Below are positions 44,419-61,462 of a stretch of 64,000 nucleotides of DNA, one piece after another. The stretch's first letter is position 1; each line of letters starts with the position of its first letter. The DNA is from Candidatus Woesearchaeota archaeon. Its GTDB lineage: Archaea > Nanobdellota > Nanobdellia > Woesearchaeales > JABGUJ01. The position numbers and the translations under genes were made by a program. The notes below the pieces were generated by a model. The model was not told where the DNA came from and ran no database searches. It saw only the letters and a program-made list of their open reading frames with translations. The stretch covers positions 317,534-381,533 of the forward strand of contig JABGUJ010000001.1 in assembly GCA_018646625.1 (NCBI GenBank), given 5' to 3'.

Positions 44419-44440
44419 TCTCCAGTAGAAACCAAGGAGT
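44419..44440 (+). promoter_or_regulatory. ORB-like element (origin recognition box), degenerate copy
   Basis: TCTCCAGTAGAAACCAAGGAGT; close to 44504..44526 copy. Confidence 0.45.
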
Positions 44441-44503: not shown

Positions 44504-44526
44504 TCTCCACAGGAAACCAAGGGGGC
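44504..44526 (+). promoter_or_regulatory. ORB-like element (origin recognition box)
   Basis: TCTCCACAGGAAACCAAGGGGGC, same dyad plus G-string layout as the elements at 58437 and 58671. Confidence 0.6.
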
Positions 44527-44662: not shown

Positions 44663-45223
44663 ATGGGAAAACACGATATACGAGTTGTTAACATTGTTGT
44701 ATCAACTTCTTTGGAGCACGACATTCCTTTAGAGAAGATGGCAGCTACTCTGTCAAACACAGAATACAACCCAGAACAATTTCCTGGTCTTGTAATTAGA
44801 GTTAAAGAACCTAAAACTTCCGCTCTAATCTTCAACTCTGGTAAAGTCGTTTGTACTGGAGCAAAAACTCTTTCAGATGTATCTGAGTCTCTTAAACAAA
44901 TTAAGAAGAGTTTAGAAAAAATTAATGTCAAGATTACCGTCGATCCGGAGATCAATGTTCAAAACATTGTTGCATCAGGTTCAATTGGTAGAGATCTTAA
45001 TTTAAATGTTCTAGCAATGAAACTGGAGAACACTGAATACGAACCAGAACAATTCCCTGGTTTGGTTTATAAACTAAAAGGCTATCTGCCTGAAGACCAA
45101 ACTCAGAAAGCAACTTTCCTATTGTTTAGCAATGGAAAAATTGTTTGTACTGGAACTAAAAGTGAAGACCAAGTAGATTTAGCTGTTGATAAGTTAATTG
45201 AGAACTTGGACAACTTAAAATAA
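44663..45223 (+). CDS. tbp: TATA-box binding protein
   Basis: Two imperfect repeats: VVSTSLEHDIPLEKMAATLSNTEYNPEQFPGLVIRVKEPK...FNSGKVVCTGAK and NIVASGSIGRDLNLNVLAMKLENTEYEPEQFPGLVYKLK...FSNGKIVCTGTK. Confidence 0.97.
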   Translation: MGKHDIRVVNIVVSTSLEHDIPLEKMAATLSNTEYNPEQFPGLVIRVKEPKTSALIFNSGKVVCTGAKTLSDVSESLKQIKKSLEKINVKITVDPEINVQNIVASGSIGRDLNLNVLAMKLENTEYEPEQFPGLVYKLKGYLPEDQTQKATFLLFSNGKIVCTGTKSEDQVDLAVDKLIENLDNLK

Positions 45224-45365: not shown

Positions 45366-47399
45366 TTGAAAATGGATACAATTGAAGTAACGGAACAAAT
45401 TTCCCGATTCAAGGAGTTCTTTGAAGAAAACTACATGGATGAACTTCTTGAAAGAATAAGAGTAGGAAAAAATTGGTTAGACATAGACTTCGCAAAACTT
45501 TCTAAACATGATATAGAACTAGCAGAACTATTACTTGATTATCCTGAAGAAGTTCTAAAAGCTGCAGAAATTGGAATAAAAGAATTTGACTTGCCTGAAG
45601 AAATAAAAAGATTTCACATTAGACCTTTCAACCTACCAGAATCTCAAACAATCATGATCAGAGATATCAGAAGTAAACATATTGGAGGACTATTAACAAT
45701 TACCGGCACCGTACGACAAAAATCAGACGTACGTCCGCAAGTTACAACTGCAAGATTTGAATGCCCAAGTTGTGGTAATGTAATGTCTGTATTACAATTA
45801 GAAAATAAATTCAACGAACCAACAAGATGCGGCTGCGGAAGAAAAGGAAAATTCAGATTATTAAGTAAAGAGCTAGTAGATGCACAAGGAATTGTACTTG
45901 AAGAGGCGACTGAAGATCTAGAAGGTGGTGAACAACCAAAAAGAATGAATGTGTTCTTAAAAGATGATTTAGTTAGCCCGATCTCAGATAAAAGAACCAA
46001 CCCGGGTTCAAAAATAAGAATAGTGGGTTCAATAAAAGAAGTTCCAATCATATTAAGATCTGGAAGTCAGTCAACTAAATTTGATTTACTAATAGATGCA
46101 AATCATGTAATTAGCGTAGAAGAAGATTTCACTCAAGTACAAATATCAAAAGAAGAAAAAGAAGAGATATTAACTCTTTCAAAAGATCCGAAAGTATACG
46201 AAAAACTGGTACAATCAATAACTCCATCTATTTACGGTCACGATAAAATAAAAGAAGCACTAGTACTGCAATTAATTGGAGGCGTACATAAAAAAAGAGC
46301 TGACGGAGTATCAACCAGAGGAGACATGCACGTACTTTTAGTAGGTGATCCCGGTTCGGGTAAATCTATGATGCTTAAACGTTGTTCAGTTGTCGCTCCA
46401 AAATGTAAATATGTATCTGGTAAAGGTGCATCCGGCGCAGGTTTAACTGCGGCAGTTGTTAAAGATGAATTTCTTAATGGTTGGAGTCTTGAAGCAGGCG
46501 CATTGGTTCTTGCCAACAAAGGCTTCTGTATGATAGACGAGTTGGATAAGATGAGCAAAGAAGACAGAAGTGCAATGCACGAGGCTCTTGAACAACAAAC
46601 CGTAACGATTAGTAAAGCAAACATTCAAGCAACACTACAATGTCAGACAACTGTTCTTGCTGCAGCAAACCCAAAATTTGGAAGATTCGATCCTTATGAA
46701 CTGCTAGCAAAGCAAATTGACTTACCTCCTTCTTTAATAAACAGATTTGATTTGATTTTTCCAGTACGAGATATGCCAGAACCTGAAAAAGATGAAGCAT
46801 TAGCAAAGTTTGTACTTAATCTTCACAAAGCTACGGATATACGAAAATCAGAGATAGGAGACAATCTGCTCAGAAAGTATTTAGTCTATGCAAGAACAAA
46901 ATGCAAACCTCAACTAAACGATGATGCATTAGAAGAAATCAAAGCATATTACGTAAAAATGAGAAACACAGGAACCGAAGATGGTGGTGTTCAACCCATC
47001 CCTATTTCCGCGAGACAGTTAGAAGGTCTTGTGAGATTATCGGAAGCATCAGCAAAATCTAGACTTGCAACTACTGTAAACAAAGATGATGCAAAACGAG
47101 CAATTGAACTACTACATTTCTGTCTGAGCCAAATTGGATTAGATCCAGACACAGGAAAAATTGATATTGACAGAATAAGCTCAGGAATAACTGCATCTCA
47201 ACGTGGCCAAATTGGTGTTGTAAAAGAAATTATAAAAGATCTGGAAGACAAAGTTGGAAAGGTCATACCAATAGATGACATAATCAAGGAAGCAGATACT
47301 CAAGATATTAGAGAAAGTGCAGTTGAAGAAGTTATTGAAAAACTTAAGAGATCGGGAGATGTTTTCGAACCTAAACGGGGCTTTTTAAGTAGAATTTAA
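45366..47399 (+). CDS. mcm: Minichromosome maintenance helicase MCM
   Basis: SITPSIYGHDKIKEALVLQLIGG, LVGDPGSGKSMMLK, GFCMIDELDKMSKEDRSAMHEALEQQTVTISKA, LINRFDLIFPV. Confidence 0.97.
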   Translation: MKMDTIEVTEQISRFKEFFEENYMDELLERIRVGKNWLDIDFAKLSKHDIELAELLLDYPEEVLKAAEIGIKEFDLPEEIKRFHIRPFNLPESQTIMIRDIRSKHIGGLLTITGTVRQKSDVRPQVTTARFECPSCGNVMSVLQLENKFNEPTRCGCGRKGKFRLLSKELVDAQGIVLEEATEDLEGGEQPKRMNVFLKDDLVSPISDKRTNPGSKIRIVGSIKEVPIILRSGSQSTKFDLLIDANHVISVEEDFTQVQISKEEKEEILTLSKDPKVYEKLVQSITPSIYGHDKIKEALVLQLIGGVHKKRADGVSTRGDMHVLLVGDPGSGKSMMLKRCSVVAPKCKYVSGKGASGAGLTAAVVKDEFLNGWSLEAGALVLANKGFCMIDELDKMSKEDRSAMHEALEQQTVTISKANIQATLQCQTTVLAAANPKFGRFDPYELLAKQIDLPPSLINRFDLIFPVRDMPEPEKDEALAKFVLNLHKATDIRKSEIGDNLLRKYLVYARTKCKPQLNDDALEEIKAYYVKMRNTGTEDGGVQPIPISARQLEGLVRLSEASAKSRLATTVNKDDAKRAIELLHFCLSQIGLDPDTGKIDIDRISSGITASQRGQIGVVKEIIKDLEDKVGKVIPIDDIIKEADTQDIRESAVEEVIEKLKRSGDVFEPKRGFLSRI

Positions 47400-50268: not shown

Positions 50269-51099
50269 TTATTTCTTAACTACGTAGAATATTTCACCAA
50301 CTTTCTGAATACACTCAACTTTATATCCTAGTCGTTTGCACATCAATTCAAACCAACCCCTTTGTGGATGATTCATTGGTTTATTGGATAGTGTTTTAGC
50401 TGAGAAACTGACCACAACCCACTTTGCATTCACTGATTTTATTAATTTTTCACTAAGTTTGTGATCTTTACCCAAATCCAAGTGATCTAACAATTTAAAC
50501 ATAAAGCAAACATCGACGTCAGGAAATTCAATCTCGGATGATTTCAACTCTAGTAAATCAACCTCTTTGAAACTAAAATCCACACCCTCTCTTGATTCAA
50601 AAAACTTAGAAATAAACTCAAGATCTCCTAGAGAAATGTCCCATGCTTCGTATTTAACTTTAGATAAACCCATCAAATCAAAAGACAAAGGATTCATTCC
50701 ACATCCCAAATCCAAAATGGATGCAGGTTTGCCTGTAATCGCAAAAAGTTCATCAAAGATTTCGAGATAAATCTCAATCCGTTCTTTTGATGATTTGTGG
50801 GTTTTTAACAACATAACATAGTTTTCTTCAGAATCGTCTTCTAGATACGTTCGCAAGTGTTTTTCTCTTCGTTTGGCAAATCTTGTGAAAAACATACCAA
50901 ACGCTTGACGACACTCCCCTCTTAATCTTTTAATCATCAAAGCAGAATCTTTAGCCCCAACATCTTCCAAACTAGACACTTTCGGGTGAGTACGCCTATA
51001 CTCTGCAAGTTTATGCATAACAAAATCTTCAGAAATATGTCTAGGCTCTTGTTTTTCTTTAATTTTATCAACAATTCCTTGTTCAGTTAACCGAACCAT
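50269..51099 (-). CDS. 16S rRNA methyltransferase ArmA/Rmt (FmrO)-like, SAM-dependent
   Basis: LLKTHKSSKERIEIYLEIFDELFAITGKPASILDLGCGMNPLSFDLM; CFMFKLLDHLD. Confidence 0.75.
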   Translation of the reverse strand: MVRLTEQGIVDKIKEKQEPRHISEDFVMHKLAEYRRTHPKVSSLEDVGAKDSALMIKRLRGECRQAFGMFFTRFAKRREKHLRTYLEDDSEENYVMLLKTHKSSKERIEIYLEIFDELFAITGKPASILDLGCGMNPLSFDLMGLSKVKYEAWDISLGDLEFISKFFESREGVDFSFKEVDLLELKSSEIEFPDVDVCFMFKLLDHLDLGKDHKLSEKLIKSVNAKWVVVSFSAKTLSNKPMNHPQRGWFELMCKRLGYKVECIQKVGEIFYVVKK

Positions 51100-54000
51100 T
51101 TGCCAAGTCCCTCTTGTCTATCTTTTTCTTTACCAAAAACACCATCCACTCTTCGTTTAAGCAACTCTAAACTCTGTTGCAAATAAACAGGTACGTCGTA
51201 TTTCTCCGCTAAACTAATTGATGGTTGCAGGTATTTAACAATGCTTCCTTCTGAAATCGTAAATATAATCTTCCCACCACATTCAGTACACTTCCCAATC
51301 AAAGGCGGACGACGATACTTGGTATTACATTTAACACATCTAAATTGTTGTTGAGAAAATTTCCTCAAATTACCTTTTGTATCTCTAATAAAATGCCTTT
51401 CAATAACTAACCGCGCCACATCGGCAGTTTTAACAGATCTCAACTTCTCTGCAATCTCCATTTGCCCTTTCAATTTTTCTTCCATAGAAGGCAAAATCTT
51501 ATACGCAGAGCAATTTATTCCAACATTAAAATCATCAGTATCGTGAGTAAATCCCATCCCTTCATATTGCTCTTCAGTATTCAGAGTATCTTTAATCATT
51601 TTCAACTTAACATCCCATGGTTTCTTGTATTCTAAGCACGCATTATAGAACTCCAAAGGATATTTCCATACAATATCAATATCGAAAGCCATATCATCGA
51701 CTTCTCCCGGAGCCAAAATCGAAGTTAAAACTAAAGGGGCATCCATCATACCTCCTCTGCTATTGGGGAGATACTTCTGAGAAAAATTAAGGAATGCATC
51801 TAACAACAAAAAGAAACAACTCTCATCACCATCACAATCTCGCCTCATGGCTGCATGCATATAAGGATGTGAAAAGAAACCTTGAGTTTTAGAAAATCCT
51901 AAAATTCTACACACAGACCCTGCACTTGTGTGAGGCGCCAACCCAATAACAAAATGACCAACCAGATCTTCTCGTTTTTTTACATTATAATATGGTTGCA
52001 TCCCATATAGCGACACCAATGTGTCGTCAATAAACTGGGTGGTTTTGATCAAAACATTGTCGGCCATTTCATCCGGCGATTCAGGACAACAAGGAACAAG
52101 TATATCTTGAGGCATTAATTCTAAAATTTGATCTTCTTCTTCCAAAGGTCTTCCTTTAATATCAAGTTCATAACCAAGTTCTTTTAATCGCTCAACCCCT
52201 ACACCAATTTCCTTAGGTTTAAAATGAGTAACAGGAATTTCACTACAATCATATCTAATCGTCCCATCCTTATTAACAAAAACTCCGTTGTAAGCTCTTA
52301 ATATTCCTTTTAACAAATGCTCAGGTATGTGCTCTCTATTCGAGGTTCCTCTCACCCCTTTAATTAAATCAGGAATTGCTCTCAAATCAGCCATTTTCAA
52401 ACAAGAATTGTATATTCTTCTAAGATCAATTGCTCTTTTTGACGATGCATCGGCCTTTCCATGATTTTTACAAACTTCTTCATCCACCACACCACACACT
52501 TTACAAGCATATTGCTTCCTGGTATGCCCTCCGCACTTTTCGCAAACACTTAAAGGAGTATCAATTTGGCAAGCATCACAAAAACGAATTGGAAACTCTG
52601 CATTAACTTTTCCACCCTCTAGTGCTGCTTGGAAAGATCTCAACCGTCCCCCTTCTTCTCCAACTGGAAACAAAACATGAGGCGTACCAGTCATTTTTCT
52701 CATTTTAGCCTTCTCAGGCCTACCCATTCTACATCCAATAAATAAACCAGATTTGTCTCTCAACCTAACAGAAGAAATATACTTCACTACATCCATGATT
52801 TTCATTTCTTTGTTTTTCTCTATCAACTTAAGAACTTCTTCTTCCGACTTAGAATCCAAACCCAAAGTACAGATTAATGCATTACCGTAATCCTCTTTAA
52901 TTATTGCATATTCATTCGCAGAAACTTCATGAGGCACACCCAACAATTCTAGTGCTCTTTTACCATCTTCTTCTATTTTCAAAACGAATTTATCTTTTTC
53001 TCCCTGCTTCTCGATTTTGCGACATTTAATCCATTTGATTAAAGAAATTAATTGTTCGTTCTCCAACGCAGTAAAGTGAAAAATATATTTAGGATGCAAA
53101 GGAATACTAAATCGTTTACTAACCTTCAAGGCAAAAGAGAATCCAACTTCTGTTCTTAACGAGTCCTCAAACAAATCTCTTAAGAAACCTTTATCTGCTC
53201 CGAGTTCCATAGACAATTTATCTAAATCCAAACGACCATATTCCTTCTCAACTGCTTCCTGGAATTCTAGAATCCACCACTCTTCGCAATAGCCTGGAGG
53301 TAATAATTTGTGTGCCCTATTAAGAAAATCCCCATAATTAATCAACACATCTCCTAGATATAGAACTTCAACAACTCTTTTCTTATACTCTCGTGCTTTG
53401 GCATCACTATCCAAATAAACAACAGAACCATCATCTATCTTCACAATAGGTCCTTCAATTGTATCGCAAGAAGTATACGCGGCACCCTTTCCGGGACGTT
53501 CAACTTTAAGCTGAGTTGCTGTTGCAACATAATCATTCAAAACATGCATGCTCGCAGGATGAATGCTTTGCGCACTATACCCTGAAGTTCGACTTCTTCC
53601 AAATCGTAATCTAAATCCGCCGTGAGCTAAAGGATGCCCAATCACTGGACGACCTGCGACCAAATCAGCAATAAATGTATAATCAGGAGTTATGTTCCCT
53701 TCATCGCCCGCAGATGCTTTTTTACCGTGCGCATGAACTTCTTTCTTAATCTTAACGAACTCCTCCATGAAGTTCCATTGATCCATATCAAAATCATTCC
53801 CCCATTTAGAAAGTTGTTTCCATAACTTTTCCGCCTTAAGAGGTAAACAACTAGAATACAACAAACAATACCCGCTTCTAATTATGTTTGTTTTAATTCT
53901 TGGAAGATCTTTATAATTAGAAACTTCGAACTTCTCAGACTTATCGCCATTAATCTCTATAGGCATATTTTTACCCATAAATTCCATTTCCTTTTCGCTT

Positions 54001-54659
54001 GGATAATATTGAAGGTTAGTTACCCTCTCATGATAATCAGAAATCTCAACAAAGATTCGTTTCACTTCATCTTCAGTCGGATCATAAGGTAAATATCCTG
54101 TTTTCTTTCTAACATAATCCGCAATCAAAACACAAGAAGCCGCAGCAGTACCGCCCGCATTTCTCACAGGACCTGCAAAATTCAAACATAAATATTTTCC
54201 CTTACCATCAAGCCTGTCTTTTTCTTCAATATTGGTTAAACCTTCTAATGGTGCGGTTACCACCCCCACAGTTTGATACGCAAACCCTGTTCTAACACCC
54301 ACCTCAATTGCTTCTAATTTATTATCAAATTTACAAAACTTTTCCGCAGCTATTTCTTCAGCAATCTTAAACGCGACTCTCCAATCCAACTTACCATATT
54401 CTTGTTCCAGCTCAATAATTCTATCTACGACACCGCTATCAACAATCTGCGGAGCAACAGTAGATATTAACCCTACTACCCTCTCAGCCATATTCTTTGC
54501 AAGCTTAACTTCTACTCTATCTACCGGATCGAAACCTTTAGCTCTTGCTTCGGAAGCTATCTTGAACTCGGTTTGTACGCCGTGCTCTATAGTATCAAAA
54601 TAAGCCAACATCTTAGAAGATGCGATTATTTTCTCTTCTGCTTTTGTTTCTTCTTCCAT
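51087..54659 (-). CDS. polC: DNA polymerase D large subunit (DP2)
   Basis: YLCLNFAGPVRNAGGTAAASCVLIADYVRKKTGY, HPLAHGGFRLRFGRSRTSGYSAQSIHPA, CDGDESCFFLLLDAFLNFSQKYLPNSRGGMMDAPLVLT. Confidence 0.97.
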   Translation of the reverse strand: MEEETKAEEKIIASSKMLAYFDTIEHGVQTEFKIASEARAKGFDPVDRVEVKLAKNMAERVVGLISTVAPQIVDSGVVDRIIELEQEYGKLDWRVAFKIAEEIAAEKFCKFDNKLEAIEVGVRTGFAYQTVGVVTAPLEGLTNIEEKDRLDGKGKYLCLNFAGPVRNAGGTAAASCVLIADYVRKKTGYLPYDPTEDEVKRIFVEISDYHERVTNLQYYPSEKEMEFMGKNMPIEINGDKSEKFEVSNYKDLPRIKTNIIRSGYCLLYSSCLPLKAEKLWKQLSKWGNDFDMDQWNFMEEFVKIKKEVHAHGKKASAGDEGNITPDYTFIADLVAGRPVIGHPLAHGGFRLRFGRSRTSGYSAQSIHPASMHVLNDYVATATQLKVERPGKGAAYTSCDTIEGPIVKIDDGSVVYLDSDAKAREYKKRVVEVLYLGDVLINYGDFLNRAHKLLPPGYCEEWWILEFQEAVEKEYGRLDLDKLSMELGADKGFLRDLFEDSLRTEVGFSFALKVSKRFSIPLHPKYIFHFTALENEQLISLIKWIKCRKIEKQGEKDKFVLKIEEDGKRALELLGVPHEVSANEYAIIKEDYGNALICTLGLDSKSEEEVLKLIEKNKEMKIMDVVKYISSVRLRDKSGLFIGCRMGRPEKAKMRKMTGTPHVLFPVGEEGGRLRSFQAALEGGKVNAEFPIRFCDACQIDTPLSVCEKCGGHTRKQYACKVCGVVDEEVCKNHGKADASSKRAIDLRRIYNSCLKMADLRAIPDLIKGVRGTSNREHIPEHLLKGILRAYNGVFVNKDGTIRYDCSEIPVTHFKPKEIGVGVERLKELGYELDIKGRPLEEEDQILELMPQDILVPCCPESPDEMADNVLIKTTQFIDDTLVSLYGMQPYYNVKKREDLVGHFVIGLAPHTSAGSVCRILGFSKTQGFFSHPYMHAAMRRDCDGDESCFFLLLDAFLNFSQKYLPNSRGGMMDAPLVLTSILAPGEVDDMAFDIDIVWKYPLEFYNACLEYKKPWDVKLKMIKDTLNTEEQYEGMGFTHDTDDFNVGINCSAYKILPSMEEKLKGQMEIAEKLRSVKTADVARLVIERHFIRDTKGNLRKFSQQQFRCVKCNTKYRRPPLIGKCTECGGKIIFTISEGSIVKYLQPSISLAEKYDVPVYLQQSLELLKRRVDGVFGKEKDRQEGLGKWFG

Positions 54660-54660
54660 T

Positions 54661-55575
54661 TTAGTAATATGTTGTACGAATCATCGGTTCTCGTATACTC
54701 AACCCTTCTTCTTTATTATCACAAATATCCGAAAATAAACATTTATTTTTACATGAATTTGGTGTTTGTTTAGTAAACGTACACTTTTCACTCACACACG
54801 AACTACAACACACCTTAAATCTAGCACAACAACTTCGCCCAATCTGCCAAAGAATAAAAGATTGTTGTGGAATTTTCAAATTCGAAAAAGTAGACATTAA
54901 CTTAGCTGCGCCAGAAACTGCAACACGCACAGATGTGTCTTCTTCTAACGTAAACACTTCTTTACCCTTCATCTTAGCCAGCAAATCACCAACATCTACT
55001 ACACCTAATCTAGTAAACATTCTAACAACATGATAGTCAACAGCAGGTGGTGCGTTTTCTAAATCATCAAACTGCGCCATTCCTTGATTCATTAAATCGC
55101 TAAGAAACGCGGCACTTTTCTTTCTAACAGGATCTTCAGAATATGCATCAAACAAATCTAATCGGTTCAACAACCCAGATGGGCCACCAAGCTTACAAAA
55201 AGATTCATCAACCAGTCTCTTAACACTTCCAGAATAATTTGAAACTAATTTTTCACATATATCCCTTACAAATGCCGTTCTCTCTTCAGCACGAACTCTA
55301 TCTTCATCCAAACCTTCAAACCAAGACCCATATTCTTTTGAAGATAAATTCTGCAAATATTCTGCATTAAACTTATCCGGATGCGTCTCAATAAATCTTC
55401 CCCACGCACGCAAATGTTTATCGTGATTAATATTATGACAAATAGACATAACTAGTAAAGATTTTAGTAACTCACTCTCATTTGCTTCAGATTTAACTTC
55501 AACAACCAAAGGAGCTTTCAAACTACTCAAAACCAAACCGACTTGCTCGCATTTTTGTTCATTAAGCTTAACCAT
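54661..55575 (-). CDS. Helix-hairpin-helix / Fe-S cluster-like protein of unknown function, between PolD subunit genes
   Basis: DPVRKKSAAFLSDLMNQGMAQFDDLENAPPAVDYHVVRMFTRLGVV; C-terminal CCARFKVCCSSCVSEKCTF...CKNKCLFSDIC. Confidence 0.65.
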   Translation of the reverse strand: MVKLNEQKCEQVGLVLSSLKAPLVVEVKSEANESELLKSLLVMSICHNINHDKHLRAWGRFIETHPDKFNAEYLQNLSSKEYGSWFEGLDEDRVRAEERTAFVRDICEKLVSNYSGSVKRLVDESFCKLGGPSGLLNRLDLFDAYSEDPVRKKSAAFLSDLMNQGMAQFDDLENAPPAVDYHVVRMFTRLGVVDVGDLLAKMKGKEVFTLEEDTSVRVAVSGAAKLMSTFSNLKIPQQSFILWQIGRSCCARFKVCCSSCVSEKCTFTKQTPNSCKNKCLFSDICDNKEEGLSIREPMIRTTYY

Positions 55576-57035
55576 TATGTTTCTTTCTCCCCGAAATTCA
55601 TTATTCTTGCTTCACGCGTACGTAAATTAACAACCGGAACTTTAGAAGGCTGCGCCTTTATACCTAACTTTATTTGATAATCAGATGTAGGAATCCATGT
55701 AGAGCAATTAATCATAGTAATATTTCTATAGTTAGCTATAGCCGCTCTATGAATGTGCCCAGTAATAAAAAAATCAGGAACTTTATCTATAACCAAATAA
55801 TCTTTTTCAGCATCAGGTAAGTAAAGTGTTGATGTATGCATTGGCGCTAAATGTCTTCTTTGCAACAAAAATTTCATTATAAGGTCGCTTCTGTCCTGTC
55901 CCCCTTTCTCTCTTATCCCTTTAACTACATCTGCATAGAATGGAAAACTAAATCCGTGATACAACAAAACATCAAAACCAGGAAATCCTTCTTTTTTACC
56001 AACATTAACCATGGCAGGATTACTAACCAAAACAACATTAGGCAATTTCCATATTGATTCAGCAAAGTCCTTATACAAAACTGGCTGTGGTTCTGCTATT
56101 CTCATAGCATCGTGATTACCAGGACAAATAATTATCTTCATATGTGTAGGGATCATTGCAATATATTCAGTTAGTGCTTCATACTGTTGGTAAATATCAT
56201 CAATTTCCAGATCTTTTTCCTGTCCGGGATAAATACCCACCCCTTCAACCAGATCTCCCACCAAAAAGATGTATTTTACTTTAGAAGCGATATCTCTTTG
56301 ACTCTCCGTTCCAGTATCTCCTTTCAACCAACTTACAAATTTCAAAAAATCATCTTTCAAAAACTCATTATTGCCAAAATGAAAATCTCCAATAAACACC
56401 GCATACTCTTCTTCAGGTGATTTACGAAGTTCTTTAGTCATGGGAATATCAGGAAACAATAAACTATTTGCAAAAACAATATTATCACCATTAACACCAA
56501 CTATCCCTATTGTTTCATCCAAAACAATATCTCTACCCAACGCTAAAAGGTCGTTTCTATTTTTATTTATCAAAACTTTAACTTTACCAGTAGGATCTTC
56601 AAGAGTGAGCATTATATGACCGTTTGGAGTTTCATTTTTTTCCAACACCAAACCTATTATAGAAACATTATCCTTCTCTTTTCTACTAATCACTCTAGAA
56701 ATAGAAGTTAATCCTTGCATTTCTTGCCTACGCATAAGCATGGCTTTCAACGCATTATATCTAGCATTAAAATAACCAACAAAATGTTGAACTTCCCTTT
56801 TGTGAGGTTCTTTATCATAACAAGAAATTATCTCAACCGACCCACCAGTTTCGGGACCTTTAACACTCGCCCCCGCACCTATAAGTAATTCTTTTTTGAT
56901 CTCGTCAAGTTCATCACAAGATTCTGCTACCTTTATTCTAGAAAGAATATCTGAATCTATCAACATCTCTCTATCTAAGAAATACTTTACTAGCTCCTTT
57001 TTGCTACAGGTTAAGTCTTGAATCACTTTTTGCAC
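55575..57035 (-). CDS. polB: DNA polymerase D small subunit (DP1), calcineurin-like
   Basis: OB region NGHIMLTLEDPTGKVKVLINKN; FIGDFHFGNNEF, LVGDLVEGVGIYPGQ, CPGNHDAMRIAEPQP, ITGHIHRA. Confidence 0.96.
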   Translation of the reverse strand: MQKVIQDLTCSKKELVKYFLDREMLIDSDILSRIKVAESCDELDEIKKELLIGAGASVKGPETGGSVEIISCYDKEPHKREVQHFVGYFNARYNALKAMLMRRQEMQGLTSISRVISRKEKDNVSIIGLVLEKNETPNGHIMLTLEDPTGKVKVLINKNRNDLLALGRDIVLDETIGIVGVNGDNIVFANSLLFPDIPMTKELRKSPEEEYAVFIGDFHFGNNEFLKDDFLKFVSWLKGDTGTESQRDIASKVKYIFLVGDLVEGVGIYPGQEKDLEIDDIYQQYEALTEYIAMIPTHMKIIICPGNHDAMRIAEPQPVLYKDFAESIWKLPNVVLVSNPAMVNVGKKEGFPGFDVLLYHGFSFPFYADVVKGIREKGGQDRSDLIMKFLLQRRHLAPMHTSTLYLPDAEKDYLVIDKVPDFFITGHIHRAAIANYRNITMINCSTWIPTSDYQIKLGIKAQPSKVPVVNLRTREARIMNFGEKET

Positions 57036-57057: not shown

Positions 57058-58269
57058 TCAAGCCAAACCTAGATCGTTCTTTAAGATTGATCTTATCTTT
57101 GGTTCAATGCTTGGTTGTGTGGCAAGAGAAATTTCTTTCGTCCTACCGTATCTTCCTTTTGAAATCACTTTTGCATTAATTATACCTAACATATCTAACT
57201 CCGCCAAAATATCTGACAGCCGTCTTTGTGTTAGTGGCCTTAATGCGGTTCTATTACAAATTGATTTGTAAACGTCATAAACCTCTCCGGTTGAAATATT
57301 ACCTTTTCTTGTCTCAGATATGGCATAAATGGAATAAAGTACTGCTTGGAACTGTTTAGGTTGTGTAGAAACAATATCTACCATCCTATCTCTCTCGATT
57401 TTTTCTTCAGCTAAATCTAAATGTTCTATCTCAACATGTAATTCATTAGATCGCTCAGCCAACTCTCCCGCAATTCTCAACAATTCAAGAGCTCTTCTCG
57501 CATCTCCGTGTTCTTTTGCGGCATACGCCGCGCATTTTTCTATCACTCCAGATCGTAATATCCCATCACGAAACGCAACTTTTGCTCTTTGATTTAGTAT
57601 ATCTTGAATTTGCAACGCATTATATGGTGGAAATACTAATTCTTCTTCACTTAAAGAAGATTTAACTCTTGGATCTAAATTGTCAGTAAAAACTAAATCA
57701 TTTGATATTCCAACAACAGAAATTTGTGCATTTTTTAATTCTGAATTAATTCTTGTAAGGTTGTATAAAATTTCATCCCCTGCTTTTTTAACAAGTTGAT
57801 CTATTTCATCCAATATTAAAAGAACAACTTGTTTATTGTGATCTATTGCATTGTAAAAAATTTTGTAAACTTCATCTGTTGGTAACCCTGTTGGAGGTAC
57901 CGCTTTACCAAACTCTCTAGCAAGCTGTGCAATTAATCTATATTCGGTATCTGCAACTCTTTTTAGTTTACAATTAATATAAAAAACTTTGACTGGAATC
58001 TTATTTTTTTTACTAACTTCAAGAATGTGATTTGTTGTATGCCTTACCGATAATGTTTTGCCGGTTCCGGTTTTACCATATACGAATAAATTTGATGGTT
58101 TGTTTAAACGTAATGCTGGAGCTAAAATTTTAGCGATTTGTGTTATTTGATCATCTCTGTGTGGGATGTTATCTGGAGTATAATTAGCTTGAAGTACTTC
58201 TTTATCAAGAAATAGAGGTTCTTTAGTCAAATAATCTTCAAATAACCCCGTAATACCTTTCTTAACCAA
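57058..58269 (-). CDS. cdc6: Orc1/Cdc6 replication initiator
   Basis: NLFVYGKTGTGKTLSVRHTT, VVLLILDEIDQLVKKAGDEILYNLTR, GISNDLVFTDNLDPRVKSSLSEEELVFPPYNALQIQDIL, wHTH. Confidence 0.97.
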   Translation of the reverse strand: MVKKGITGLFEDYLTKEPLFLDKEVLQANYTPDNIPHRDDQITQIAKILAPALRLNKPSNLFVYGKTGTGKTLSVRHTTNHILEVSKKNKIPVKVFYINCKLKRVADTEYRLIAQLAREFGKAVPPTGLPTDEVYKIFYNAIDHNKQVVLLILDEIDQLVKKAGDEILYNLTRINSELKNAQISVVGISNDLVFTDNLDPRVKSSLSEEELVFPPYNALQIQDILNQRAKVAFRDGILRSGVIEKCAAYAAKEHGDARRALELLRIAGELAERSNELHVEIEHLDLAEEKIERDRMVDIVSTQPKQFQAVLYSIYAISETRKGNISTGEVYDVYKSICNRTALRPLTQRRLSDILAELDMLGIINAKVISKGRYGRTKEISLATQPSIEPKIRSILKNDLGLA

Positions 58270-58436
58270 TTCAATCGTCCTCTTTTTTCAAAACAAGCGT
58301 TTTCATGTGCTTATCTCCAGACGAAGAGAAGGTATATAAACTTTTTCTTTGTTTTTAAATGATCTTTATGAAAACAAAATATCGTAAATACAGAGTCTAA
58401 AAAGCACATTGACAAAAAAAACATCCCATACCTCTG

Positions 58437-58458
58437 ACCCCCTCATTTCCTATGGAAA
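58437..58458 (-). promoter_or_regulatory. Origin recognition box (ORB) A
   Basis: Minus strand TTTCCATAGGAAATGAGGGGGT. Confidence 0.8.
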
Positions 58459-58529
58459 TGGAAATTCTCTGTTAAATGTACGTTCATCCGTACAAATTTC
58501 AACGAATCAGATTTTTTCATCCACTTCCG

Positions 58530-58592
58530 TTATTATTATTATTATTATTATTATTTTCTATATAGTAAATATATAATATAATATAATATAAG
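58530..58592. repeat. AT-rich microsatellite-like tract (TTA)n / (ATATA)n, putative DNA unwinding element
   Basis: ttattattattattattattattattttctatatagtaaatatataatataatataatataag. Confidence 0.8.
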
Positions 58593-58670
58593 ATCAAAAA
58601 ATAAAAAATTTTCAAAAACGTTTTAGAACTTAAAAAAGCTAGAAGAGAGGCTCCAAAGCAAAAAAAACAG

Positions 58671-58692
58671 TTTCCACAGGAAATAAGGGGGT
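58671..58692 (+). promoter_or_regulatory. Origin recognition box (ORB) B
   Basis: TTTCCACAGGAAATAAGGGGGT. Confidence 0.8.
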
Positions 58693-59738: not shown

Positions 59739-59760
59739 TCTCCACATGAAATAAAGGAGT
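59739..59760 (+). promoter_or_regulatory. Degenerate ORB-like element upstream of hjc
   Basis: TCTCCACATGAAATAAAGGAGT, 18/22 matches to ORB B; partly overlaps a possible ribosome-binding site. Confidence 0.4.
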
Positions 59761-59768
59761 AACAAGAG

Positions 59769-60191
59769 GTGATAATCATTTCTAGAAAGTCTCAAGGGAT
59801 TGCAGCAGAAAGAGAACTCCTTCACAAATTCTGGAACACGGGAAAATTCATAGCTATGCGAGCACCCGGTAGCGGAGCAATAAAATATCCCGTACCTGAT
59901 TTATTAGTTGGTAACCACCTAAGACGGTTCGCAATAGAGTGCAAAACAACAAAAAGTCAACGACAATACCTACGATCAGAACAAATTAACGATCTAAAAA
60001 CATTTTCAGATACTTTCGGGGCAGAACCTTGGGTTGCCGTAAGATTTCCCGACAAAAATTGGTATTTTCTATCTCTAGAAGACTTAGATAAAACGGCAGG
60101 AAATAATTTTGTTATTTCATTAGAATCTGCAAAAAGAAAAGGGCTTTTTTTTGAAGAAATAATCAACTCCGATCCTCTTTCCTCATCTTAA
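59769..60191 (+). CDS. hjc: Holliday junction resolvase Hjc
   Basis: SQGIAAERELLHKFWNTGKFIAMRAPGSGAIKYPVPDLLVGNHLRRFAIECKTTKSQRQYL. Confidence 0.94.
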   Translation: MIIISRKSQGIAAERELLHKFWNTGKFIAMRAPGSGAIKYPVPDLLVGNHLRRFAIECKTTKSQRQYLRSEQINDLKTFSDTFGAEPWVAVRFPDKNWYFLSLEDLDKTAGNNFVISLESAKRKGLFFEEIINSDPLSSS

Positions 60192-60757: not shown

Positions 60758-61462
60758 TTAATGAAGCAATCTAGATCTTTCTTCTTCATAAAACAAATGA
60801 GATGCTTTCCCCATTTCTGCATGAAAGTGATCTGCCTCTGTTCTTACTTGTAACTCCATTTTTTGACCCCTATAGATTACTTTGAGGTGTCTGGCTCTAT
60901 ATCCATTCATTTTCTCAACAAGCCTGAACGCATCATTAGGATCAACATCAGGAGACAAAGTAAGATTATCTAACAAGAATTCAGAAACATATAATGCATC
61001 AGCTTCGGTAGGTGTTACTATTCTTGCTCTATGAACATCACCAAGTTCTCCAGTCATTTCTTCACCTAGCGCAGCTCTTAACATTTTTTCTTCTAAAGAA
61101 TCAAGACTTTTTTCATTAGTAAAAAGCATAGATACTCTTGCATTTGGATTTCTGGATGTGTAATTACCATTTACACCTCCAATTAATTCATAAGGATGCA
61201 TTCCGAGTTCATCCGCTTCTAGAACATATTGTGCCAATTCACCTAAACTTGATCTGCCTTCTTTTATCAAAGCATATAGCGCAGCCGTTTTTTCTGCTTC
61301 ACCTACAACATCACCAACAAGGCGTCTTTCTAATCTTTCACCCATAAAAATAGGTATTTGTTCACCACCTGTAGGCAAAGCAAGCCCCATACTCAACGGG
61401 CATTCTCTTATCAGCTCAAGTCTTGTTTCTTCGTCCATTTTCCCCATAGCTCCATTAGTCAA
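60758..61462 (-). CDS. RelA/SpoT synthetase-like domain protein
   Basis: GDVHRARIVTPTEADALYVSEFLLDNL and NGYRARHLKVIYRGQKMELQVRTEADHFHAEMGKASHLFYEEERSR resemble conserved (p)ppGpp synthetase motifs. Confidence 0.7.
   Translation of the reverse strand: MTNGAMGKMDEETRLELIRECPLSMGLALPTGGEQIPIFMGERLERRLVGDVVGEAEKTAALYALIKEGRSSLGELAQYVLEADELGMHPYELIGGVNGNYTSRNPNARVSMLFTNEKSLDSLEEKMLRAALGEEMTGELGDVHRARIVTPTEADALYVSEFLLDNLTLSPDVDPNDAFRLVEKMNGYRARHLKVIYRGQKMELQVRTEADHFHAEMGKASHLFYEEERSRLLH

Follow-up and report, generated by a model that had tools for sequence, protein, structure and literature searches.

An inverted pair of ORBs enclosing an AT-rich tract, at 58437-58692 of the 64-kb stretch of DNA that was analysed here (the window), is very probably the central part of the oriC from which a Woesearchaeales archaeon replicates its chromosome; judged from its sequence, we assign this reading a probability of roughly 0.88. 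The DNA itself shows the motif, how its copies are arranged, that it is unique to this place and that it is conserved together with orc1 and the PolD genes. A sequence-only reading of the window had already proposed a probable oriC, and the ORB consensus, the inversion of the pair, the AT-rich centre, the adjacent initiator gene, the rarity of the motif and its retention in relatives all argue for that proposal. The putative core consists of three elements:

58437-58458, minus strand: ORB proximal to orc1, TTTCCATAGGAAATGAGGGGGT, G-string toward orc1; 3 of 20 positions mismatched against the published common archaeal ORB motif
58530-58591, no strand: putative duplex unwinding element (DUE), with the repeats and the lowest GC of the window
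58671-58692, plus strand: ORB distal to orc1, TTTCCACAGGAAATAAGGGGGT, its G-string pointing outward from the AT tract; 2 of 20 positions mismatched against the published motif

The two 22-mers are indeed present at the positions and on the opposite strands where the sequence-only reading had placed them; they are identical at 20 of 22 positions and 212 nt lie between the copies. Their dyad plus G-string build, which had been taken for archaeal ORB architecture, is confirmed as such by the small number of mismatches to the published consensus (2 and 3 out of 20). In a refinement of the earlier description, the dyads are on the inner side of each ORB, facing the AT tract, and the G-strings on the outer side. 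The enclosed repeats had likewise been recognised and are now located as (TTA)8.7 at 58530-58555 and (ATATA)4.2 at 58571-58591. The tract that they form comprises the lowest-GC stretches of 60, 100 and 150 bp of the 64-kb window, the 60-bp minimum being 3.3% GC inside the pair vs. 11.7% for the next best elsewhere in the window.

Two matches to the 22-mer with ≤3 mismatches exist in the window, against 0.01 matches expected from shuffles, and the whole genome of 1,572,594 bp has no others, both being at the pair; the reversed 22-mer, which served as a control, has no match in the same 1,572,594 bp. The sequence-only reading had named frequent occurrence of the 22-mer elsewhere as an argument against an origin, and the genome-wide search returned only these two copies. 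An independent test motif was available in the common archaeal ORB motif of Ori-Finder 2, TCCA[CG]T[TG]GAAA[TC][GA]AAGGGGT (PMC4164010), which was not derived from the sequences analysed here. Allowing ≤3 mismatches, this motif matches the window five times (the pair, 59741-59760, 44421-44440 and 44506-44525), each time in intergenic DNA of replication genes, the five sites spanning at most 15.3 kb. It has no match in a further 1,038,229 bases of this genome, the scan having taken in about two thirds of the genome, as stretches. With regard to a plasmid relationship, the intergenic region had no match in a plasmid collection.

The pair is situated 0.2-0.4 kb upstream of orc1, which is followed on the minus strand, to the left of the pair, by both PolD genes and an ORF between them:

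58330-58341, minus strand: putative TATA-like box of orc1, TTTATATA, read from the sequence
57058-58269, minus strand: initiator gene orc1/cdc6, coding for 403 aa from the listed TTG start; the product has the Cdc6_C winged helix and lid and keeps the GRYG wing
55575-57035, minus strand: PolD small subunit DP1 (Pfam DNA_pol_E_B, Metallophos)
54661-55575, minus strand: 304-aa ORF between DP1 and DP2
51087-54659, minus strand: PolD large subunit DP2 (Pfam PolC_DP2 domains)

These Pfam domains and the gene order bear out the earlier placement of the locus just upstream of cdc6 and the PolD genes. A TrmB-like regulator and an Hjc resolvase are encoded to the right of the pair on the plus strand. 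With 24.2 bits, the match of the 304-aa ORF to a queuosine salvage protein stays below the cut-off of 25, and a RelA/SpoT-domain protein is encoded near the putative origin, at 60758-61462 of the window. Among solved structures, Orc1-1 of S. solfataricus (2qby_A, 4e-111) and ORC1 of A. pernix (2v1u, 1e-97) are closest to the Orc1 of the window, which keeps the recognition helix, the GRYG wing and the PRVKSSL segment that the sequence comparison found to be common to 2qby_A and 2v1u and which we take to include the DNA-contacting residues of both structures. The genome contains two more Orc/Cdc6 paralogues with ~31% identity (G000:C4:179907-181079 and G000:C2:164421-165365), neither of which has ORBs nearby; relatives, too, usually possess a homologue of these at ~30% identity. 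Since both paralogues are devoid of the GRYG wing, the Orc1 of the window is likely the reader of the ORBs.

The named relatives of this Orc1 (56-70% identity) nearly all belong to Candidatus Woesearchaeota or Nanoarchaeota, in line with the earlier impression of a DPANN-type genome, and the orc1 gene is shared by further genomes of this order and class. From Woesearchaeales and other orders of this class, we examined 68 distinct orc1 loci for which ≥1 kb of upstream sequence was available. When ≤4 mismatches are allowed, an ORB is present upstream of orc1 in 67 of the 68 loci and an inverted pair with the geometry of the window (G-strings outward, proximal and distal copies on opposite strands) in 47, the other 21 having no inverted pair at this threshold; at ≤3 mismatches, 61 loci contain an ORB and 32 a pair. 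Shuffled upstream sequences gave 1.0 loci with any site and none with a pair, the reversed motif did not occur in the 68 upstream regions, and pairs of opposite geometry were not encountered among the orc1 loci at ≤3 mismatches. The distance between the ORBs varies from ~0.1 to 0.8 kb across the pairs in relatives (median gap 334 bp for the 39 pairs measured), and all of these 39 pairs enclose a 60-bp stretch of 85-100% AT. Downstream of orc1 on the same strand, DP1 is found in 43 and DP2 in 39 of the 46 named loci, several of the remaining ones being cut by contig ends. Contig ends also occur ≤400 bp upstream of orc1 in 14 out of 93 distinct relatives (L008, L011, L016, L017, L020, L029, L033, L047, L057, L067, L070, L286, L287, and L290) vs. 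one ≤400 bp downstream; the ORB/AT-tract region is a place where assemblies are prone to break.

The AT tract is made of microsatellites and the window is AT-rich, which could raise the suspicion of a chance match or a low-complexity artefact. We rejected this explanation, which seems to us hardly conceivable, on the basis of the two-copy genome count and the reversed control (0 of 68 loci); the number of matches expected in the window is only 0.01, and the sites have been kept across many families.

The sequence-only reading had also suggested a skew inflection as a check on the origin. Raw GC skew of the window and its contig mainly reflects gene orientation together with a one-sided bias and is uninformative; third-codon-position skew was therefore used, computed per gene strand and then averaged to yield the strand component. 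The genome (G000) consists of the contigs C1, C2, C3, and C4; the window is C2:317534-381533 and the ORBs are at 376.0-376.2 kb of C2. On this contig, the strand component (GC/AT) weakens from -0.39/+0.31 to -0.17/+0.04 without a change of sign. The best change point is at 395.5 kb, ~20 kb from the ORBs, with a likelihood interval (393.5-398.4 kb) that excludes the ORBs and a bootstrap interval (325-406 kb) that includes them. In the relative G018, the component goes from -0.34 (GC)/+0.16 (AT) at 330-350 kb to +0.17/-0.17 at 414-434 kb; its ORBs lie at 394.6-395.0 kb and the best change point at 406-416 kb, 11-21 kb beyond them (bootstrap 395.6-424 kb). The GC component of the single-contig relative G010 is -0.15 at 755-775 kb and +0.14 at 780-800 kb, with the ORB at 764.1 kb. 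A sign change within about 5-25 kb of the equivalent site is thus seen in these two relatives, whereas the genome of the window shows a change in strength only, some 20 kb off. In G012, whose orc1 lacks a recognisable ORB, the skew does not reverse near this gene, and G044 has no strand skew. Overall, the skew support for the origin is mixed: fair in two relatives and weak in the genome itself.

Independent of contig order, the strongly skewed DNA of this genome adds up to ~0.79 Mb, half of the 1.57-Mb total: the whole of C4 (339 kb), the part of C2 before ~376-396 kb and the first ~63 kb of C1. Within this half, third-codon GC skew is ~-0.45 and AT skew ~+0.35 whichever the gene direction, and the other half is nearly neutral; one boundary of the skewed half is near the ORB pair, and halves that mirror each other would be expected of a symmetric bidirectional origin. 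An end-overlap search among the contigs produced no usable overlaps. The reverse of C1 was joined to C4 because the 16S rRNA gene is split between both contig starts (C1, minus strand, model positions 1-971; C4, plus strand, model positions 1167-1478). In this split gene (L151, L222) ~195 model positions are missing, possibly due to an intron or an assembly gap. If C4 is assumed to join C2, the antipode of the ORB pair would be at ~C1:71 kb. Given this assumed join, the skew step on C1 at 62-64 kb (with a wide bootstrap upper limit) fits one replichore running from the pair to the antipode.

Three further sites in the window, all missing from the sequence-only reading, match the published motif:

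44419-44440, plus strand: second ORB-like site, in tandem with the next, TCTCCAGTAGAAACCAAGGAGT; 85 bp from the first, ≤3 mismatches vs. the published motif
44504-44525, plus strand: first ORB-like site upstream of TBP-MCM, TCTCCACAGGAAACCAAGGGGG; ≤3 mismatches vs. the published motif
44663-45223, plus strand: TATA-binding protein (TBP) gene, the first gene behind these sites; identified by sequence reading
45366-47399, plus strand: MCM replicative helicase gene, directly 3' of TBP; identified by sequence reading
59739-59760, plus strand: TCTCCACATGAAATAAAGGAGT, a weaker ORB-like site immediately before Hjc; 2 mismatches vs. the published motif over 59741-59760
59769-60191, plus strand: Hjc-family Holliday junction resolvase (Pfam Hjc, 2.3e-25)

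Both sites at TBP-MCM are direct copies pointing toward TBP at 44663. TBP homologues are present in 57 of 60 relatives, and the linkage of TBP and MCM is present in relatives as well. Thirty relatives (L172-L201), chosen by their TBP and not by an ORB, were scanned over 500 bp upstream, and 20 of them possess an ORB-like site with ≤4 mismatches vs. 0.15 expected from shuffles. All 17 sites with ≤3 mismatches have one and the same orientation, and in relatives they often come as two direct copies 75-85 bp apart. Where TBP is located elsewhere (G006), the ORB-like sites stay in front of MCM. This suggests that the TBP-MCM sites may be Orc1 targets that regulate or titrate the promoter of the helicase operon. 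A second origin at this position was considered and is not favoured, since the copies are direct repeats in one orientation and are not inverted around an AT tract. Within the flanks covered, Hjc is present in only four named loci of relatives.

In about a dozen genomes ORBs, often in tandem, adjoin a gene for a small coiled-coil protein with a helix-turn-helix-like segment at its C-terminus (motif LxELKxxIVDQxxYCSKATFYRYLxEL), for which a Pfam search returned no significant family. Nine such loci (L082-L086, L092, L094, L095, and L097, in genomes G003, G004, G028, G021, G050, G008, G024, G055, and G038) were found through their ORBs and are, therefore, not independent evidence. In most, the ORBs precede the gene; in L082, L083, and L092, they are 3' of it. 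Three further loci of this protein were tested, of which the one in G016 has a site with ≤3 mismatches and the other two have none.

The occurrence of ORBs in fixed orientation in the TBP-MCM promoter region implies that, in this group, ORBs are not confined to origins. It could be argued from this that the pair at orc1 is an operator and nothing else, at which Orc1 autoregulates its own promoter while replication starts elsewhere: the proximal ORB is oriented to orc1 as the MCM sites are to TBP, and the skew of the genome keeps its sign at the pair. However, autoregulation does not call for another ORB, inverted and farther upstream by 0.1-0.8 kb, nor for the most AT-rich DNA between the two, and 47 of the 68 relatives have both; the skew reverses near the pair in G018 and G010; and the proximal ORB is ~95 bp away from the TATA-like box, which is on its orc1 side, so that the two do not overlap. 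An exclusive operator role is, in our opinion, very unlikely. A sigma-70 promoter scan was set aside as uninformative for an archaeon.

The chances are about even that both functions are combined, with the pair acting as oriC while Orc1 also sets the transcription of orc1 and has further targets in the TBP-MCM and Hjc sites. The same class of ORB is present beside orc1, TBP-MCM, and Hjc and nowhere else in the 1.04 Mb examined, and the frequency of the TBP-MCM site among relatives given above points in the same direction; the additional sites could, however, also be Orc1 titration sites or auxiliary elements of the origin instead of operators. Slightly more tentative, at somewhat under even odds, is the idea that the Orc1 of Woesearchaeales also regulates a small replication regulon through canonical ORBs in promoters, with orc1, TBP-MCM, and Hjc as members here and the coiled-coil/winged-helix protein in some relatives. 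If this were true, origin licensing and helicase supply would be coupled through one DNA-binding protein and, provided that the ORBs at TBP-MCM are functional, an archaeal initiator would control its own helicase supply. In the open-access papers searched, Orc1 control or titration at the promoter of a helicase operon was not described.

For the pair as oriC, we infer from studied archaea that Orc1 binds, MCM is loaded, the duplex melts and replication fires in both directions. In known archaea, ATP-bound Orc1 monomers bind ORBs with polarity, and inverted ORBs flanking the DUE direct MCM hexamers onto it (PMC12141716). Here, the Orc1 from the adjacent gene would bind both ORBs as ATP-bound monomers, its winged helix contacting the dyad (TTCCA..GGAAA) and its AAA+ initiator-specific motif the G-string. 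The inverted placement of the ORBs on either side of the AT tract would bring two oppositely oriented MCM hexamers onto this tract; the (TTA)n/(ATATA)n repeats would then melt and two forks would leave.

The type of origin is already known as a kind. A described replication origin for Woesearchaeota or DPANN was not found in the open-access papers searched. The Orc1/ORB/DUE layout would extend through this DPANN order, and a searchable 22-bp consensus may allow replication and growth rate to be inferred from metagenome coverage in these mostly uncultivated archaea with small genomes.

Pyrococcus has a single Orc1-type oriC that is linked to PolD genes. Its ORB repeats are located directly upstream of cdc6 (PMC4010727), as is the case here, where PolD genes are likewise downstream on the same strand and where there is, also as in Pyrococcus, apparently a single ORB-bearing locus for initiation. 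The locus of the window differs in that only two strong ORBs are present and flank the AT tract, that the ORB core is TTCCAYAGGAAAT with an outward GGGGGT, and that the host belongs to the Woesearchaeales, with a putative origin function. Methanomassiliicoccales have two orc1/cdc6 genes, one of which has ORBs in pairs nearby, with the consensus GTTCCAGTGGAAATGG-AGGGGTA (PMC4153887), and thus share an ORB pair near orc1, although many of their pairs are downstream of orc1, whereas the pair here is upstream and arranged around an AT tract. A precedent for an Orc1/Cdc6-family protein at promoters is Saccharolobus Orc1-2, which is described as a non-initiator (PMC9738581); unlike in that case, the sites here are canonical ORBs that, by sequence, would belong to the initiator Orc1. 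There is also a parallel in layout with Sulfolobus, although the ORBs are 212 bp apart here and a median of 334 bp apart in relatives, against the 130-bp ORB3-DUE-ORB2 region of S. islandicus, a third ORB is not close by as in Sulfolobus oriC1 (a weak site is ~1.05 kb away), and there is no sign here of a second or third ORB-defined origin. In S. islandicus oriC1, both ORBs flanking the DUE are each required in vivo (PMC12141716). The Orc1 of the window is close in sequence to Orc1-1 of Sulfolobus and, as in the ORB2-DUE-ORB3 arrangement of Sulfolobus oriC1, two inverted ORBs are placed around a putative AT-rich DUE.
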